Shown: in pieces, positions 1 to 13,025 of the stretch | How the letters are laid out: every line of letters begins with the position of its first letter | Numbering within the stretch: the stretch's first letter is position 1 | DNA from: Candidatus Hydrogenedentota bacterium | Lineage (GTDB): Bacteria > Hydrogenedentota > Hydrogenedentia > Hydrogenedentales > JAGMZX01 | DNA length: 15,319 nucleotides | NCBI GenBank assembly: GCA_029556545.1 | Contig: JAKQEQ010000096.1 | Coordinates: 1 to 15,319 of the forward strand | Direction: 5' to 3' | Program-made: the position numbers and the translations under genes | The notes under the pieces: generated by a model | The model's input: only the letters and a program-made list of their open reading frames with translations | Databases searched by the model: none | Told to the model about the DNA's origin: nothing

Positions 1-3245
<3,245 letters not shown>

Positions 3246-3597
3246 GCGATAGCCTCCTAATCAAGGGGCGTTGGCGTAGTATTCGGTACTCGAAACGGCC
3301 AACGGGTAATCAGAACAGGCGACACGTGACCTCATTACGCGCACAACAGTCCGGGGGCGGGGTAGACGTAAACTGGCGGTTACCTTCATACCTTCGCTCA
3401 TGGTCTCGCTGTCGGCATACCGATTCGTAACGAGAACATATTCTTAACCAACTTACTTAAACTAATATTCCCGATTATCTTTGTCGTGTCGAGGGAGGAG
3501 AGGCGCAAACTCCGAGAATAACGCCCTCTTGGATTGCACACACTCGATTGAGTAGGATGCGGGCCAGCAACGGAAAACGCTATGCGGAGTGCTGTTC
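3246..3597. other. Divergent intergenic region
   Basis: About 350 bp separate the starts of the large exported protein (minus) and the PHP-like gene (plus). I see no convincing gene here. An AT-rich island at about 3425-3481 stands out against the GC-rich surroundings. On the minus strand a loose pair (TTGGTT, 16-base gap, TACGAA) lies inside and beside the island. On the plus strand there is a TAATAT at 3463-3468 but no good -35 element. Promoters for both genes probably lie here, but neither is firmly assigned. Confidence 0.5.
3586..3589 (+). promoter_or_regulatory. Ribosome binding site choosing ATG 3598
   Basis: GGAG is followed by an 8-base spacer and ATG 3598. The alternative in-frame GTG at 3589 overlaps this motif and has no well-spaced site of its own, so the ATG is preferred. 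The difference is only three residues. Confidence 0.5.
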
Positions 3598-4926
3598 ATG
3601 CGCGAAGTGCTGGAGCGGGAAATTGATGATTTTGACGTAGCGTTCCGGTGGACGGCGCTCGAGGAACTGGAGGCGTTGGCGCGCGAGGGCGCAATCGCCT
3701 TGCCTGAAACCGGAGACCGCGTCAACCTGCATTGCCATTCCTTCTTCTCTTACAACGGCTACGGCTACTCGCCGTCGCGCCTTGCGTGGTTGGGCCGCGC
3801 GGCGGGACTGTACGCGATGGGGATTGTGGATTTCGACGTACTGGACGGGGTTGACGAATTTCTCGAAGCGTGCGCGCTGCTTGGGCTGCGCGGGTGCGGC
3901 GGATTCGAGACGCGCGTCTTTGTGCCGGAGTTCGCGGGGCGCACGATCAACTCGCCCGGCGAGCCGGGCATCGCCTACCACATGGGCGTCGGCTTCGCCT
4001 CGGGCGAGGCGGTCGACCCGGCCCCGCTCGACGCATTCAAGCACACGGCTCAGGAACGCACGCGCGAACTGGCCGCGCGCGTGAGCGCGCACCTCGATCC
4101 GGCGGGGGTGGACTTCGAGCGCGACGTGCTGCCGCTCACGCCGAATTGGAACGCCACGGAGCGGCACGTGTGCATGGCGCTGGACGCAAAGGCGCGTTCG
4201 GTGTTTCCCAAGGACGAGAAGCGCGCGGCCTTCTGGGCCGAAAAGCTGGGCGAGCCGCCGGAGCGCATAACCGCCGTGCTGGACGACTCGCCCGCGCTCC
4301 AGGGGCTGGTCCGCGCCAAGACAATGAAAGCGGGCGGGGTCGGGTACGTGAAACCGGAGGGCGGCGACTTCCCGACGTTACGCGACGTGAGCGCCTTTGT
4401 CCTTGCCAATGACGCGATTCCCACGTTCGCCTTTCTCGACGGTACGTCGGACGGCGAACAGTGCATGATCGAGCTGCTCGACGTGATGATGGAATCCGGC
4501 GTCGCCGCAGTCAACATCATCCCCGACCGCAATTGGAACTATAAGGATTTCGACGTGCGCCGACGCAAGGGCGAACTGCTTCACCGGTTCGTTGATGAAG
4601 CGCGGTCGCGCGACTTGCCGATCGTCGTCGGCACGGAAATGAATGCGTACGGCCAGCGTTTCGTGGACGACTTTGACGCGCCCGAACTCGCGCCCCTGCT
4701 GCCCGTGTTCCTCGAAGGCGCCGACATCGTGTACGCCCATACCCGGCTGCAACAGCACGCGGGGCTTGGTTACCTCAGCGCGTGGGCGCGTCAGAGTTTC
4801 CCCGATATCGGCGCGAAGAACGCCTTTTACGCGGAGGTCGGGCGGTTGCTTGACCCCGCCGATCAGGACGGGCTGAGCCACGTCACGCCGGAGTCGTCGC
4901 CGACGGACGTTCTCGCCGCCCTGTAG
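3598..4926 (+). CDS. PHP-domain-like putative metal-dependent hydrolase
   Basis: The protein has 442 residues from ATG 3598, or 445 from GTG 3589; an in-frame stop at 3553 limits the upstream extent. PHP-type features: motif I as NLHCHSFFSYNG (H45, H47), a motif II equivalent GIVDFDVLDG (residues 75-84) where Phe79 replaces the usual His, Glu104 in GGFET, and His128 in AYHMGVGF, like the 'HILGYG' strand of PHP proteins. The C-terminal half carries NIIPDRNWN and a second GTE (Glu347) within VVGTEMNAYG. PHP proteins are metal-dependent phosphoesterases or hydrolases; the substrate here is unknown. No signal peptide or membrane segment is seen, so it should be cytoplasmic. It precedes the trp operon by 134 bp but nothing ties it to tryptophan synthesis. 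Fold assignment is moderately sure; function is open. Confidence 0.75.
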   Translation: MREVLEREIDDFDVAFRWTALEELEALAREGAIALPETGDRVNLHCHSFFSYNGYGYSPSRLAWLGRAAGLYAMGIVDFDVLDGVDEFLEACALLGLRGCGGFETRVFVPEFAGRTINSPGEPGIAYHMGVGFASGEAVDPAPLDAFKHTAQERTRELAARVSAHLDPAGVDFERDVLPLTPNWNATERHVCMALDAKARSVFPKDEKRAAFWAEKLGEPPERITAVLDDSPALQGLVRAKTMKAGGVGYVKPEGGDFPTLRDVSAFVLANDAIPTFAFLDGTSDGEQCMIELLDVMMESGVAAVNIIPDRNWNYKDFDVRRRKGELLHRFVDEARSRDLPIVVGTEMNAYGQRFVDDFDAPELAPLLPVFLEGADIVYAHTRLQQHAGLGYLSAWARQSFPDIGAKNAFYAEVGRLLDPADQDGLSHVTPESSPTDVLAAL

Positions 4927-5002: not shown

Positions 5003-5060
5003 GCGCGCCTTGGCATGCGATATAACGTTTCCCGCCTTCTGCCATTTCCGGGACGCACTG

Positions 5061-6077
5061 ATGGCCATTCAGGAAAGCATTGCGAAACTGATCAATAAGA
5101 GCGACTTGGGCCGCGAGGAAGCGGCGCAAGCCATGCGCGAATTGATGTCCGGCGAGGCCACGGACGCGCAGATGGCGGGGTTCCTGGTCGCACTTGCCAT
5201 GAAAGGGGAGACCGTCGAGGAGATCGTGGGCCTGGCGTCAACCATGCGCGCGTTCGCCACGCCGGTGCCGGTATCGCGGAAGCCGCTCGTTGACACGTGC
5301 GGCACGGGCGGGGACCACTCGGGGACGTTCAATATCTCGACGGCCGCGGCGTTCGTAACGGCGGGGGCGGGCATAGCCGTGGCGAAGCACGGCAACCGGA
5401 GCGCGTCGAGCCGCTGCGGGAGCGCGGACGTGCTCGAGGCGCTGGGCGTGAGTATCGAGGCGGACCCGGCGGTTGTCGGGCGGTGCATCGATGAAATCGG
5501 GATCGGCTTTCTCTTCGCGCGGACGCTGCACAGCGCCATGGGGCACGTGGCGCACGTGCGCACGGAACTCAAGATACGCACCGTGTTCAACATTCTCGGC
5601 CCGTTGACGAATCCGGCGAACGCGGACGGCCAGGTGATGGGCGTGTACGTCGGCGACTTGGTCGCGCCGCTGGCCGAGGCACTTCAAAACCTGGGCGCGC
5701 GCCATGCCTTCGTCGTTCATGGCTGCGACGGGCTCGATGAATTAACGCTGGGGGGGCCGTCGCGTGTGGCCGAGGCGAAGGACGGCCGCATCAAGACGTA
5801 TGAAATTACACCAGAGCACTTCGGGTTGGCGCGACGCCCGAAGTCCGCGTTGATCGGGGGCGATGCGGAGACGAATGCGCGGCTCTTGCGCGACGTGCTC
5901 GATGGAAAGCGCGGGCCGCACCGGGACATTGTGCTACTCAACGCGGCGCCGGCCATCGTCGCGGGGCAGCAGGCGGGTGATCTCGAGGGCGGAATAGAAC
6001 GGGCCGCCGTCTCCGTTGACTCGGGGGCCGCACTGGAAAAACTCGAACAACTGATCAGACACTCCCATGATTCTTGA
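5061..6077 (+). CDS. trpD: Anthranilate phosphoribosyltransferase
   Basis: TrpD transfers the phosphoribosyl group of PRPP to anthranilate, the second committed step of tryptophan synthesis, in the cytoplasm. The 338-residue length matches the family. The PRPP-binding CGTGGD motif is at residues 80-85, the KHGNRSASSRCGSAD segment at 109-123 and the metal-binding GLDEL at 224-228. I chose ATG 5061 because the family N-terminus (AIQESIAKL) starts there; an in-frame TTG at 5010 would add 17 residues with no family match. There is no fused TrpG domain. The stop overlaps the start of trpC by 11 bases, so it is the first gene of a tightly coupled operon. Confidence 0.97.
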   Translation: MAIQESIAKLINKSDLGREEAAQAMRELMSGEATDAQMAGFLVALAMKGETVEEIVGLASTMRAFATPVPVSRKPLVDTCGTGGDHSGTFNISTAAAFVTAGAGIAVAKHGNRSASSRCGSADVLEALGVSIEADPAVVGRCIDEIGIGFLFARTLHSAMGHVAHVRTELKIRTVFNILGPLTNPANADGQVMGVYVGDLVAPLAEALQNLGARHAFVVHGCDGLDELTLGGPSRVAEAKDGRIKTYEITPEHFGLARRPKSALIGGDAETNARLLRDVLDGKRGPHRDIVLLNAAPAIVAGQQAGDLEGGIERAAVSVDSGAALEKLEQLIRHSHDS

Positions 6078-6849
6078 TGAAATAGTTGCGTACAAGCGCG
6101 AGGAGGTGGCGGAGCGGAAGGGCGTGATCCCACTGCCGGCTCTCGAAGACCGCGTCGGCGAAGTTGATCCGCCGCGCGATTTCCGCGCCGCCCTGCGCCA
6201 GGACGGCATCAGCCTCATTGCCGAGATCAAGCGCGCCTCGCCATCGCGGGGCGACATCCTCCCCGGCGTGGACGCGGTCGAGGTGGCGGCGTTGTACGAG
6301 CAGAGCGGCGCGCGGGCCTTGTCCGTGTTGACGGACGCGCGGTTCTTCAAGGGATCGCTGGACGACCTAACATCTGTGCATCAGAATGTGAACGTGCCCT
6401 GTTTGCGCAAGGAGTTCATTATCGATTCGTATCAGATATTCGAGGCGCGCGCCGCGGAGGCGGACGCCGTGCTGCTCATCGCGCGGATACTATCAGACGC
6501 GCAGTTGGCCGAGTTTCTGGGGATCGCGCGAACGCTCGGGATGCAGGCCCTGGTTGAGACCCATACGGAGGAGGAGATCGCGCGGGCCGTGCGCGCGCGT
6601 GCGCATATTATCGGCATCAATAACCGGGACCTGGACACCCTTGAGGTGCGCTTTGAGACGACGCTGCGCCTGAAACGGCGCGTGCCCGGCGGGCACGTCC
6701 TGGTCAGTGAAAGCGGGATCCATACGCGGGACCAGGTGAAACAGCTCGAGGACGGCGGCGTGGACGCCATCCTGGTGGGCGAGTCGCTGATGATGAGTCA
6801 CGACATCCGCGCGAAGATACGGGAGTTGCTCGGGCGTGACGAAGGTTAA
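6067..6849 (+). CDS. trpC: Indole-3-glycerol-phosphate synthase
   Basis: TrpC closes the indole ring, turning carboxyphenylaminodeoxyribulose 5-phosphate into indole-3-glycerol phosphate. The 260-residue single-domain TIM barrel shows the expected active-site residues: LIAEIKRASPSRG (E53, K55), LRKEFI (K115), VETH (E164), INNRDL (N185) and VSESGI (E215, S216). The phosphate-binding ILVGES follows at ~235-240. It is not fused to TrpF. It overlaps trpD by 11 bases and trpF by 14 bases, so translational coupling is likely. Confidence 0.97.
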   Translation: MILDEIVAYKREEVAERKGVIPLPALEDRVGEVDPPRDFRAALRQDGISLIAEIKRASPSRGDILPGVDAVEVAALYEQSGARALSVLTDARFFKGSLDDLTSVHQNVNVPCLRKEFIIDSYQIFEARAAEADAVLLIARILSDAQLAEFLGIARTLGMQALVETHTEEEIARAVRARAHIIGINNRDLDTLEVRFETTLRLKRRVPGGHVLVSESGIHTRDQVKQLEDGGVDAILVGESLMMSHDIRAKIRELLGRDEG

Positions 6850-7409
6850 GATTTGCGGCATCACGAACGTGGAGGACGCGCTGGCCGCCTGTGAGGCCGG
6901 GGCCGACGCGCTCGGCTTCGTGTTTGCGCCCGAGGCGAAACGGCGCAATCGCCACATCGAGCCCGAGGACGCGCGCGCGATTGTCGAGCAGTTGCCGCCG
7001 TTCGTCACGACCGTGGCGGTATGCGTGAACGAGCCGGTGGAACGCCTGGCACAGGTGCTCTCATTCGTGGACTGCATACAGTTTCATGGCGATGAGGATC
7101 CGGCCGCCGTCGGGAGCATGCCCTGGTTGGCCATCAAGGCGTTTCGGACCGGGCCCGAATTCAGCATCGAGGAGATGCTCCGGTATCCCTGCCGGGCGTA
7201 TCTGCTCGATGCCTACTCGGGCGAAGGGCGGGGCGGCACGGGGCAGGTTTGCGACTGGGAAATCGCGAAAGAGGCCGTCGCCACGGGCAAGCGCATTATC
7301 CTCGCGGGCGGCTTGACGCCCGAGAACGTGGCCGAGGCCGTCCGGGCCGTTCGGCCCTACGCCGTGGACGTGTCGGGCGGCGTCGAGGCCGCGCCGGGAA
7401 AGAAGGACC

Positions 7410-8644
<1,235 letters not shown>

Positions 8645-8648
<4 letters not shown>

Positions 8649-9448
8649 ACCGGATCATCCAGCGTTTCGCGGAATTGAAGGCGCGCGGCGAGACCGCGTT
8701 CATCCCGTACATCACGGGGGGCGACCCCACCCTCGCGCGGACGGAGGAAATCATTTTGGCGCTGGCCGAGGCCGGTTCGGACGTAATCGAACTCGGAGTG
8801 CCCTTCTCCGACCCCGTCGGCGACGGGCCGGTCATTGCCGAGGCCGCGTTGCGCGCCCTCAACGGCGGCGCGACCCTCGACCGCATCCTCGAACTCGTCG
8901 CGCGGGTGCGTAGGCGCACCGAGGTCCCGATACTGCTTTTCACGTACTACAACCCGGTGCTGGTCTACGGCGCGCCGCGCTTCGCCCGCGACGTCGCGGC
9001 CGCCGGCGCGGACGGCGCGCTCTGCGTGGACCTGCCCGCCGAGGAGGCCGACGAGTATAAGGCCACGCTGGACGCGGCGGGCCTGTGCACCGTCTTTCTT
9101 GTCGCCCCCACCACGACCGAAGAACGCCTCGACCGCATCGTCGCGAAATGTTCCGGGTTCGTGTATTACGTGAGCCGTCTTGGCGTCACCGGGGCGCGCG
9201 AAGACCTGGCCGCGGACCTCCGGGAAGCCGTGGCCCGCATCAAGCGCCACACGGACAAGCCGGTCGCCGTCGGCTTCGGGATCAGCACCCCGGAACAGGC
9301 GGCCGCCGTCGCCGGCCTCGCCGACGGCGTCATCGTCGGTTCCGCTATCGTCCGCCTCATCGCGCAACTCGGCGACACGCCCGAAACGGCGGAAAAGGTG
9401 GGGGAATTCGCCGCGATGCTCGTGGCTGCCGGTAAGAGGCGCGAATAA
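8645..9448 (+). CDS. trpA: Tryptophan synthase alpha subunit
   Basis: TrpA cleaves indole-3-glycerol phosphate to indole, which is channelled to TrpB. The 267-residue TIM barrel has catalytic Glu49 and Asp60 in [14 protein letters not shown], at the same numbers as in the enterobacterial enzymes. Other hallmarks are YYNPV (101-105), YVSRLGVTG (175-183), GFGIS (210-214) and the phosphate-binding VGSA (231-234). The ATGA overlap with trpB is a usual arrangement for the two subunits. The stop shares one base with the start of the next small gene. Confidence 0.97.
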
Positions 9449-9678: not shown

Positions 9679-10587
9679 TCAATGCCAGTGATCGCCGCGG
9701 AGAAATAGCAGGCCTCTCCTTGCCGCGCCCTGCATCGCGACGCGGTCCTCGAAGGGCCGGCGCGACGGGGACTCGAATAGAAAAGCGCGGTCGGATTGCG
9801 TGAGCCGGAAGTAGTTGCCGAGGCTCAGGCCGCGTCCGGCGCGGGCAAGGCGCAGCGCCCATAGCGGCGTGTAGAGCACGCCATCGCGGGTGCGAAAGCA
9901 GACCATCCACGTGTTCTGCTCGATGGGATGGCCGCGTTCGCGCAGGTCGTCGATCACGTCTCGGCACAGGGCGGTATAGCCGTTCGCGATCTGGTAGAGG
10001 TAGAAGCCGTCGGCGCTCGAGTCTTCGTGATGTTCGATGAGGAGGTCGTATCGGTTCGCGGCGATCAGATCGCGAAGGATGCGCCCCTCCTGCGTGTTGA
10101 ACGAGGCGAAGTCCCGGTTTAGGTCGTAACCCTGCTGATTGCAGCGCTTGTTATGGACCCAGCCCCACGGATTCGCAAGGGGGACGATATCGAACGCTAT
10201 GCCCGGCCATGCGTCGGGGTCCTGGGCAAGTTCTTCGATGAAGCGGACAAGACTCTCGACGCCCGCCGGCTCGCTGCCGTGCACGCCGCCGGTCAGCAGC
10301 ACATGCGCGCGCGATTCGCCTTCAGGGACGCGGCGGACGCGCCACAGCGGGGCTTCGAAGGCGTCATACCGCACATGCCCCAGTGTATCGAGGGCCAAGC
10401 GCGGCCCAGCGGCGACGGCCTGTTGCAACCGGCGCTCGAATTCGGCGAGGTCGCGCGCGACTTTCAACGAAGCGGGGTAGGGCGCATGGGGCCGGCGCAC
10501 CCGGTGCAGTCCGTACAGGCCGCCCGCGACCAGGACCGCCGCCAGCACGGCGGCAATGATCATCGCTATGACCCAGCGTTTGCGCAT
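9679..10587 (-). CDS. Membrane-anchored M14-family zinc carboxypeptidase
   Basis: The 302-residue protein has an N-terminal hydrophobic segment (~6-24) after MRKRW, so it is anchored in or exported across the membrane. The M14 zinc site is visible: H103 and E106 in GGVHGSEPAG, the substrate-binding N157 and R158 in YDLNRDF, and the third zinc ligand in EHHEDSS (H186 or H187). The catalytic Glu is probably E272 in FLFESPSR. These enzymes remove C-terminal residues from peptides, and related families deacylate amino acids. The layout recalls the Rep34-like M14 subgroup. A GGGAGG ribosome site lies just upstream of ATG 10587. A role in cell-wall peptide or extracellular peptide trimming is an inference. 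It is transcribed toward the trp operon and away from the glycyl radical enzyme gene. Confidence 0.88.
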   Translation of the reverse strand: MRKRWVIAMIIAAVLAAVLVAGGLYGLHRVRRPHAPYPASLKVARDLAEFERRLQQAVAAGPRLALDTLGHVRYDAFEAPLWRVRRVPEGESRAHVLLTGGVHGSEPAGVESLVRFIEELAQDPDAWPGIAFDIVPLANPWGWVHNKRCNQQGYDLNRDFASFNTQEGRILRDLIAANRYDLLIEHHEDSSADGFYLYQIANGYTALCRDVIDDLRERGHPIEQNTWMVCFRTRDGVLYTPLWALRLARAGRGLSLGNYFRLTQSDRAFLFESPSRRPFEDRVAMQGAARRGLLFLRGDHWH

Positions 10588-10769: not shown

Positions 10770-13025
10770 ATGAACCGCAGAGACTTCTTGCGGACAGCTT
10801 CGGGGGCCGCGGTCATCGCGGCGGGGCCGACCGTATCCGTTAGCGCGCGCCCGTCCGACACAACAACGTTGCCTCCGAGCCGTTGGGATGATTTCTGGCG
10901 TCCGGATACGCCGTGCCGCCTTTCGGAGACCACGCGGCGACTCGCGGCGCGCGCCATTTCCGGCGAGCACGGCCGCGCGATGGCCCGCGCGACCTTCGCG
11001 TTGGACCCGGCAGCGGTTGCTGACCTATCGCCGGACATGCGCTACGCCCGCGCGGTGCAACTCGTCGCGGAACAAGCGCCGCTTCGCGTGCTTCCCAGCG
11101 AACTGATTGTCGGGTCCGCGACGCTGCTCGAAGCACCGGCCCATCTGGCCCCCCTTGCGGATGTTCACAGCACCAGCCATACGACGCTCGGATTCGCGCA
11201 GGTCTTGCGCTCGGGCTACCGAGGTCTCCGGCAACGTATCGAGGATCGCCTCGCGCGGGAGCCGCAAGCCGGCGTCTCCCCCACTCCCGGTTCCGGGGGC
11301 GCGGACCTGCTCGAAGCCATGCTGGTCTGCCTGGACGCGGCGGCGGTCTGGCACAGACGCTACATGGACCTGCTCGACGAACGCATCGCCGCGAGCGACG
11401 GCGTTGAGCGCGAGACCTACACGCACACCCGCGACGCCTTGCGCAACGTACCGGAGAATCCGCCCGAGACCTTTCACGAGGCAGTGCAGTCGCTGTGGTT
11501 CATGTACGCCTTCCAACGGCTCATGGGCACGTGGTCCGGCATCGGGCGCATCGACGAGATGCTCGGGCCGCATCTCGAACGGGACCTCGAAGCCGGGCGC
11601 CTCACGCTCGACGAGGCTCGGGAAATTCTCGCCCATTTCTGGATCAAGGGCTGCGAATGGATTGGCGCGTTCGATACGCGCGGCTCCGGTGACGCGCAGC
11701 ACTACCAGAACGTCATCCTCGCCGGCGTGGACCCGACGGGGCGGGAAGTCACGAATGCCGTGACGTATCTCGTCCTCGACATCGTCGAGGAACTGCACAT
11801 CAGCGATTTCCCGATCGCGGTGCGCCTGAATCGCAACACGCCGCGCCGATTGCTGCGGCGCATGGCCGAGGTGCAGCGCCACGGCGGCGGCATTGTCGCC
11901 GCGTACAACGAGGACGTGGCCATCGAGGCTCTCACGCGATTCGGCTATCCCGTCGAGGAGGCGCGCACCTTCGCCAACGACGGCTGCTGGGAAATGCTCG
12001 TCCCCGGCAGGACGGCCTTCATCTACGTGCCCTTCGACGCGCTCGGCCTTTTGCACGGCGCGCTCGGGCTACACGACCCGGCGCAGCCCGCGCCGGACTT
12101 CCCGGACTTCGAGACCTGCTACGCCGCCTTCCGCGAACGGCTCGCGGCGCATCTCGACGGGTTTCACCAGATGGCGGACCAGCACTGGACGCAGGGGCCG
12201 CCCGCGCCGCTGGTCTCCATGTTCGTCGAGGATTGTATCGAACGCGCGCAAAGCTACTACGCGCGCGGCGCGCGCTACAACGTGATTGCGCCGCACGCGG
12301 GCGGTCTCGCCAACGTCGCGAACAGCCTGCTGGTCATCAAGCGTCTGGTCTACGAGGACCGTTATCTGACCTTGCCGGAATTCGTCGAGGTGCTGCGGTC
12401 CGACTGGGACGGCCACGAGCACCTGCGGCAATTGGTGCTGAACCGTTTCACGTTCTACGGAAATGACGATGACGAAGCGGACGCGATGGTGCGGCGGGTC
12501 TTCGACGACTACACCGCGCTGGCGGGACAGGTCCGCGATCGCAACGGCGTCCTGCGGCCCACGGGTATCAGCACCTTCGGGCGCGAGATTGAGTGGAGTT
12601 TCCCCGAGGGACCCCGGCGCGCGTCCCCGGACGGGTACAAGCGCGGCGCGGTGCTCGCCACGAATTTCTCGCCGTCGCCCGGCACAGACCTGCAAGGCCC
12701 GACCGCGGTACTCCAGTCGTACTGCAAAATGGACTTCACCAAGACGCCGAACTGCGCCACAGTCGAACTCAAGGTCCATCCCGAGAGTGTCAAGGACGAA
12801 CGGGGACTCGACGCGATGGTCGCGCTGCTCGAAAGTTTTGTCCGCCTCGGCGGCATGTTCATGCATGTCGACGTGGTTGACTCCGCGATGCTCATCGACG
12901 CGCAGCGCCACCCCGAGAAATACCCGAACTTCGCCGTGCGCATCGCCGGCTGGTCCGCCCGCTTCGCCACGCTCGACAAGCACTGGCAGGACATGGTCAT
13001 CCAGCGCACGCAGCAACGGGTCTGA
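10770..13025 (+). CDS. Tat-signalled glycyl radical enzyme (pyruvate formate-lyase-like family)
   Basis: The 751-residue protein begins with a twin-arginine signal (NRRDFLRT, residues 2-9), a weakly hydrophobic stretch and a likely cleavage after SVSA (residue 26). The rest looks like a full glycyl radical enzyme. The PFL-like region covers ~80-600. The thiyl Cys is probably C406 in NDGCWEM, with a Glu two residues on as in glycerol, choline and hydroxyproline eliminases rather than PFL's Cys-Cys. SPSPGTDLQGPTA is at ~634-646. The C-terminal glycyl loop is VRIAGW (723-728, radical Gly727), followed by SARFATLDKHWQDMVIQRT. Known members do radical C-C, C-O or C-N cleavage in the anoxic cytoplasm after activation by a radical-SAM activase. 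No activase is nearby. An eliminase-type reaction is an inference; the substrate is unknown. Confidence 0.85.
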   Translation: MNRRDFLRTASGAAVIAAGPTVSVSARPSDTTTLPPSRWDDFWRPDTPCRLSETTRRLAARAISGEHGRAMARATFALDPAAVADLSPDMRYARAVQLVAEQAPLRVLPSELIVGSATLLEAPAHLAPLADVHSTSHTTLGFAQVLRSGYRGLRQRIEDRLAREPQAGVSPTPGSGGADLLEAMLVCLDAAAVWHRRYMDLLDERIAASDGVERETYTHTRDALRNVPENPPETFHEAVQSLWFMYAFQRLMGTWSGIGRIDEMLGPHLERDLEAGRLTLDEAREILAHFWIKGCEWIGAFDTRGSGDAQHYQNVILAGVDPTGREVTNAVTYLVLDIVEELHISDFPIAVRLNRNTPRRLLRRMAEVQRHGGGIVAAYNEDVAIEALTRFGYPVEEARTFANDGCWEMLVPGRTAFIYVPFDALGLLHGALGLHDPAQPAPDFPDFETCYAAFRERLAAHLDGFHQMADQHWTQGPPAPLVSMFVEDCIERAQSYYARGARYNVIAPHAGGLANVANSLLVIKRLVYEDRYLTLPEFVEVLRSDWDGHEHLRQLVLNRFTFYGNDDDEADAMVRRVFDDYTALAGQVRDRNGVLRPTGISTFGREIEWSFPEGPRRASPDGYKRGAVLATNFSPSPGTDLQGPTAVLQSYCKMDFTKTPNCATVELKVHPESVKDERGLDAMVALLESFVRLGGMFMHVDVVDSAMLIDAQRHPEKYPNFAVRIAGWSARFATLDKHWQDMVIQRTQQRV

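Follow-up and report, generated by a model that had tools for sequence, protein, structure and literature searches.

We have identified a glycyl radical enzyme (GRE) whose gene encodes a twin-arginine (Tat) type signal peptide, a feature shared across one clade of related bacterial proteins. GREs have been studied as cytoplasmic or microcompartment enzymes, since oxygen cleaves the glycyl radical. Judging from sequence, we consider it probable that the protein is charged by a cytoplasmic activase, exported in folded form via Tat and active as an eliminase outside the cytoplasm; export, radical loading before export, the reaction class and the substrate are all inferred. The gene lies in a stretch of 15,319 nucleotides from a Candidatus Hydrogenedentota bacterium (assembly GCA_029556545.1, contig JAKQEQ010000096.1), the whole of which we call the window. 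The relevant features are:

10770..13025, + strand: GRE gene, eliminase type, ATG start, 751 amino acids
10759..10765, + strand: Shine-Dalgarno-like GAGGTGG 5' of the ATG, from sequence
10770..10847, + strand: Tat-type signal peptide, residues 1-26 (TIGR01409; RR invariant in the clade)
11178..11180, + strand: His137, aligned with glycerol dehydratase His164 and HypD His160
11262..11282, + strand: loop residues 165-171, low model confidence, at the site of the LamG domain of Hydrogenedentota relatives
11985..11993, + strand: CxE motif of Cys406 (thiyl radical), Trp407 and Glu408, by alignment
12948..12950, + strand: Gly727 (glycyl radical) in RIAGWSARF, by alignment

Active site and family of the enzyme

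The first-pass annotation had called a full-length GRE-like protein here, and this is borne out: the window protein matches PF02901 (E 5.1e-96, 323.2 bits, gathering score 24.3) and PF01228 (E 1.5e-22, 80.6 bits, gathering score 22.2) far above their cut-offs, with the radical residues intact. Its AlphaFold model has a mean pLDDT of 88.3 and displays an ordered GRE fold from about residue 45, while residues 1-40 are modelled with low confidence (pLDDT about 35). GRE eliminases are marked by a CxE motif in the Cys loop (PMC7077986), a criterion which Cys406-Trp-Glu408 meets. Cys406 and Glu408 (in NDGCWE), His137 and Gly727 are invariant in the relatives wherever these columns are present. The HypD residue corresponding to His137 is His160, mutation of which abolishes activity (PMC7077986; the HypD numbering presumes that the PDB chain carries a tag of 20 residues).

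Diol and glycerol dehydratases are the closest folds to both the window model and that of the relative L013. A similar fold (TM 0.80 with the window model, Z 38-40 with that of L013) is seen in glycerol dehydratase (1r8w), propanediol dehydratase (5i2g) and trans-4-hydroxyproline dehydratase HypD (6vxc), which share with the window protein the CxE Cys and Glu, the active site His and the glycyl loop. Identity to them is about 23-31%, and the window's subfamily, unlike these enzymes, has a family-specific GSGDAQxYQN. We know of no solved GRE eliminase with a Tat signal or a LamG insert. His281/Ser282 of B12-independent glycerol dehydratase (GD) are replaced by Trp255/Ser256 in the window protein, so homology does not imply glycerol as the substrate. 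Assignment as HypD was rejected: the window protein scores 331.6 bits against an NCBIfam equivalog cut-off of 1100, and HypD Asp278 and Asp339 are unmatched, the aligned window residues being Ser256 and His311. Choline TMA-lyase (CutC), sulfopropanediol dehydratase, the aryl decarboxylases and PFL were likewise set aside, with scores far under every NCBIfam equivalog cut-off.

Nearer relatives are the sister GREs of Lentisphaerota, Kiritimatiellota, Bacillota and Chloroflexota (L026-L052), which are about 45-60% identical to the window protein and, like members of its clade, have activase neighbours, but carry neither the signal nor the LamG insert. Tat and Tat-less members agree at the active site columns examined, save for a small number of Ser/Pro, Ser/Thr and Cys exchanges (positions 256, 306 and 295). 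Because these columns match, the comparison suggests that the chemistry would be that of the Tat-less relatives, moved outside. The core contains fewer cysteines in Tat members (8.3, against 10.0 in the others, p 0.004), a difference which is uncorrected for kinship and which we do not count as evidence. Three Tat-less proteins (L033, L040 and L043) have a different segment of ~155-193 amino acids near the N-terminus, with no Pfam match in the two that were scanned.

The N-terminal signal and its distribution

The window protein starts with MNRRDFLRTASGAAVIAAGPTVSVSA, followed by RPSD after a cleavage-like site. The parts of a signal can be recognized as an n-region MNRRDFLR, an uncharged and weakly hydrophobic h-region TASGAAVIAAGPTV and the cleavage-like site SVSA, which leads into a hydrophilic linker. 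The NCBIfam model TIGR01409 (TAT_signal_seq) scores 22.1 bits, above its curated cut-off of 16.7, and the Pfam TAT_signal model stays below its own (16.6 against 22.7). The sequence criteria for a Tat substrate are thus met by the RR motif, the weakly hydrophobic h-region and a signal model above cut-off, from which we infer TatC-dependent export. A TatC gene is present in the window's own genome and in 22 of 23 other genomes.

Among 84,980 species genomes scanned, 56 related loci were found, all of them in metagenome-assembled or uncultured genomes. One clade, to which the window protein belongs and which draws its members from Hydrogenedentota, Planctomycetota, Armatimonadota and Bacteroidota, has RRx[F/L] followed by a hydrophobic stretch in all of its 20 rows; no relative outside this clade has it when scored identically. 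TIGR01409 matches 17 of 19 N-termini of the clade, whose only invariant columns in this region are the two arginines; the N-terminal sequence around them diverges. In a tree built from the GRE core without N-terminal columns, the signal requires one change among 47 scored rows. The 24-row clade that holds the 20 Tat rows has an SH-aLRT support of 97, and the branch joining exactly these 20 has 51 only; the remaining four rows are Armatimonadota in which no signal was seen (three scorable, one cut off at the N-terminus). Three members found later (L087, L100 and L102) all have the signal.

These observations, with a ribosome site whose AGGTGG ends 4 nt before the ATG, agree with the annotation's claim of a twin-arginine signal at the protein start, and they answer its question whether homologues share the signal as a clade. 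As a possible refutation it had named homologues that all lack the first ~35 residues, and here the outcome is split: one clade keeps the signal and the sister lineages have none. The protein could still be an ordinary cytoplasmic GRE, its RR segment unused as a signal or its true start lying downstream, for instance at the TTG of codon 34. This internal TTG is present, and the segment is indeed absent from sister lineages with the same active site. We nevertheless regard this reading as unlikely, given arginines that stay invariant over four phyla while the surrounding N-terminus diverges, the signal model matches across the clade, the good ribosome site at the ATG and the LamG insert of relatives, a domain type usual in exported proteins. 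GAGGTGG just 5' of the ATG supports the start that includes the signal; we reject a misplaced start or a chance RR pair in view of this ribosome site and of conservation across the whole clade. A promoter and terminator scan was empty.

The Tat-GRE is an accessory trait with a patchy distribution. It occurs in 14 of 68 genomes of Hydrogenedentota, the window's phylum; in Armatimonadota (the phylum of L014) the subfamily, with or without signal, is found in 19 of 291 genomes, and in the phylum of L005 in one of 392 sampled. The subfamily is absent from a genome that belongs to the same genus as that of the window.

Activase pairing and inferred charging before export

In eight Tat-GRE relatives (L005, L006, L008, L009, L018, L020, L025 and L034), which span Planctomycetota, Armatimonadota, Hydrogenedentota and Bacteroidota, a radical-SAM activase is encoded directly 3' of the GRE; four of these activases, with relatives, were run against Pfam. 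No signal peptide was seen in any of the eight, and those of L006 and L025 may have longer N-terminal extensions. Pairing also holds at the level of genomes: among 68 Hydrogenedentota genomes, 13 of the 14 that have a Tat-GRE encode an activase over cut-off, against 11 of the 54 that have none (Fisher p 9e-7). Three genomes that are 97-99% complete (G011, G012 and G057) encode a single PF01228 GRE, the Tat-GRE, and exactly one activase.

The window's own genome (G000) encodes four GREs and two activases, neither of which adjoins the window GRE gene. Among the activases neighbouring the subfamily, the best match of its C43 activase is the one adjoining the related GRE of L026 (59% identity), which makes the C43 activase the likely partner of the window GRE; this is inferred, and a cognate pair has not been shown. 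The three other GREs of this genome (C36, C18 and C105) are distantly related and lack a Tat signal, and that of C105 has its own activase adjacent. At L026:8161-11034, the activase reading frame continues into a DUF2961 domain, a possible fusion.

In our preferred reading, the GRE would fold in the cytoplasm, where a radical-SAM activase without a signal (probably that of C43 in this genome) would place the glycyl radical on Gly727. The Tat translocase would then move the charged, folded enzyme into the periplasm or to the cell surface, where Cys406 and Glu408 would serve in thiyl radical chemistry. Its extracytoplasmic substrate would most likely be a polyol or a diol derived from a sugar. 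The order of charging and export is inferred from an activase without a signal and from the ability of Tat to carry folded proteins (PMC7317946).

The annotation had offered two options: a radical that is loaded and then exported, or one that is no longer used. The former fits the sequence evidence, with export and radical inferred; the latter is disfavoured by invariant Cys, Glu and Gly, by an adjacent or sole activase and by active site columns like those of Tat-less relatives. A variant in which the Tat-type N-terminus is real and the exported, uncharged GRE barrel serves as a binding or structural scaffold outside the cell seems very improbable to us. Oxygen cleaves GREs at the glycyl radical (PMC8683613), and an exported radical would be costly given this sensitivity; the LamG insert suggests binding, and 10 of 18 Tat members with downstream sequence have no adjacent activase. 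Against a scaffold stand the invariance of Cys406, Glu408, His137 and Gly727, the shared active site columns, the activase neighbours of eight members and the three genomes in which the sole GRE accompanies the sole activase.

The least probable of the alternatives, in our estimation, is that the enzyme is exported uncharged by Tat and activated outside, or that an uncleaved signal keeps it anchored in the inner membrane, where activation takes place. A clear AxA site is missing from some members of the Tat clade. However, radical-SAM activases require SAM and low-potential electrons, both found in the cytoplasm, and the paired activases have no signal peptide.

Charging before export, which we prefer, would resemble the general case of Tat-exported cofactor enzymes, with an RR signal and folded export after cofactor loading, except that the part of the "cofactor" would here be played by a protein radical that a radical-SAM activase installs. 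If this is true, a stored protein radical crosses the membrane and is put to use at a place where recharging by the activase is impossible, and GRE chemistry extends to the periplasm or surface. We found no description of a Tat-exported GRE in the open-licence literature searched, although reports elsewhere are not excluded; if confirmed, this would be the first such radical enzyme known to us to work outside the cytoplasm. In this clade, Tat export of an enzyme that bears a radical can be put to a direct test.

LamG insert, inferred location and genomic context

Nine Hydrogenedentota relatives have ~210 extra residues at window position 171. The segment matches Laminin_G_3 (PF13385) in all three tested (E 2.6e-20, 2.3e-16 and 5e-10), and the predicted LamG domain of L013 resembles a Bacteroides carbohydrate-binding protein (4dqa; Z 18.8, 2.6 Å RMSD across 181 residues). 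LamG-type domains are typical of exported proteins, and the insert is thus independent evidence for an extracytoplasmic site, location itself being inferred. In most Hydrogenedentota relatives, this inserted, lectin-like domain would hold the enzyme to glycans. The window protein has no such insert and displays a short, low-confidence loop at the site. Because it is nevertheless placed among LamG-bearing rows on the tree, either a loss in the window lineage or two gains of the insert are implied.

The window's own genome encodes heme-copper oxidases, which means that oxygen might enter the periplasm. The enzyme may therefore be of use only in anoxic periods, and once exported it would be beyond recharging by a cytoplasmic activase.

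The only recurrent neighbours of the subfamily's GREs are the activase (21 loci) and AraC regulators (10 loci). Hints on the substrate come from sulfatase-like genes (four loci), a GH127, a GH32 and a DUF2961; from these and the LamG insert we guess at a carbohydrate-derived diol. The lectin insert and some neighbours thereby tie this unassigned GRE subfamily to carbohydrate turnover. For the Tat-GRE clade as a whole, we put forward only tentatively that its members are radical-charged in the cytoplasm, exported folded via Tat and act on glycans or glycan-derived substrates at the surface, some of them held there by a lectin domain.

Elsewhere in the window, 182 bp from the GRE start, a divergent gene (9679-10587, - strand) encodes an M14/AstE-like hydrolase with an N-terminal hydrophobic segment, which is not recurrent beside GREs. 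The window also has an ordinary run of overlapping trpD-trpC-trpF-trpB-trpA genes (5010-9448, + strand; Pfam). A 445-residue protein (3589-4926, + strand) has no Pfam or NCBIfam match, and a large protein (3-3245, - strand) contains GEGEGE runs and Dictyostelium-type CTDC repeats.
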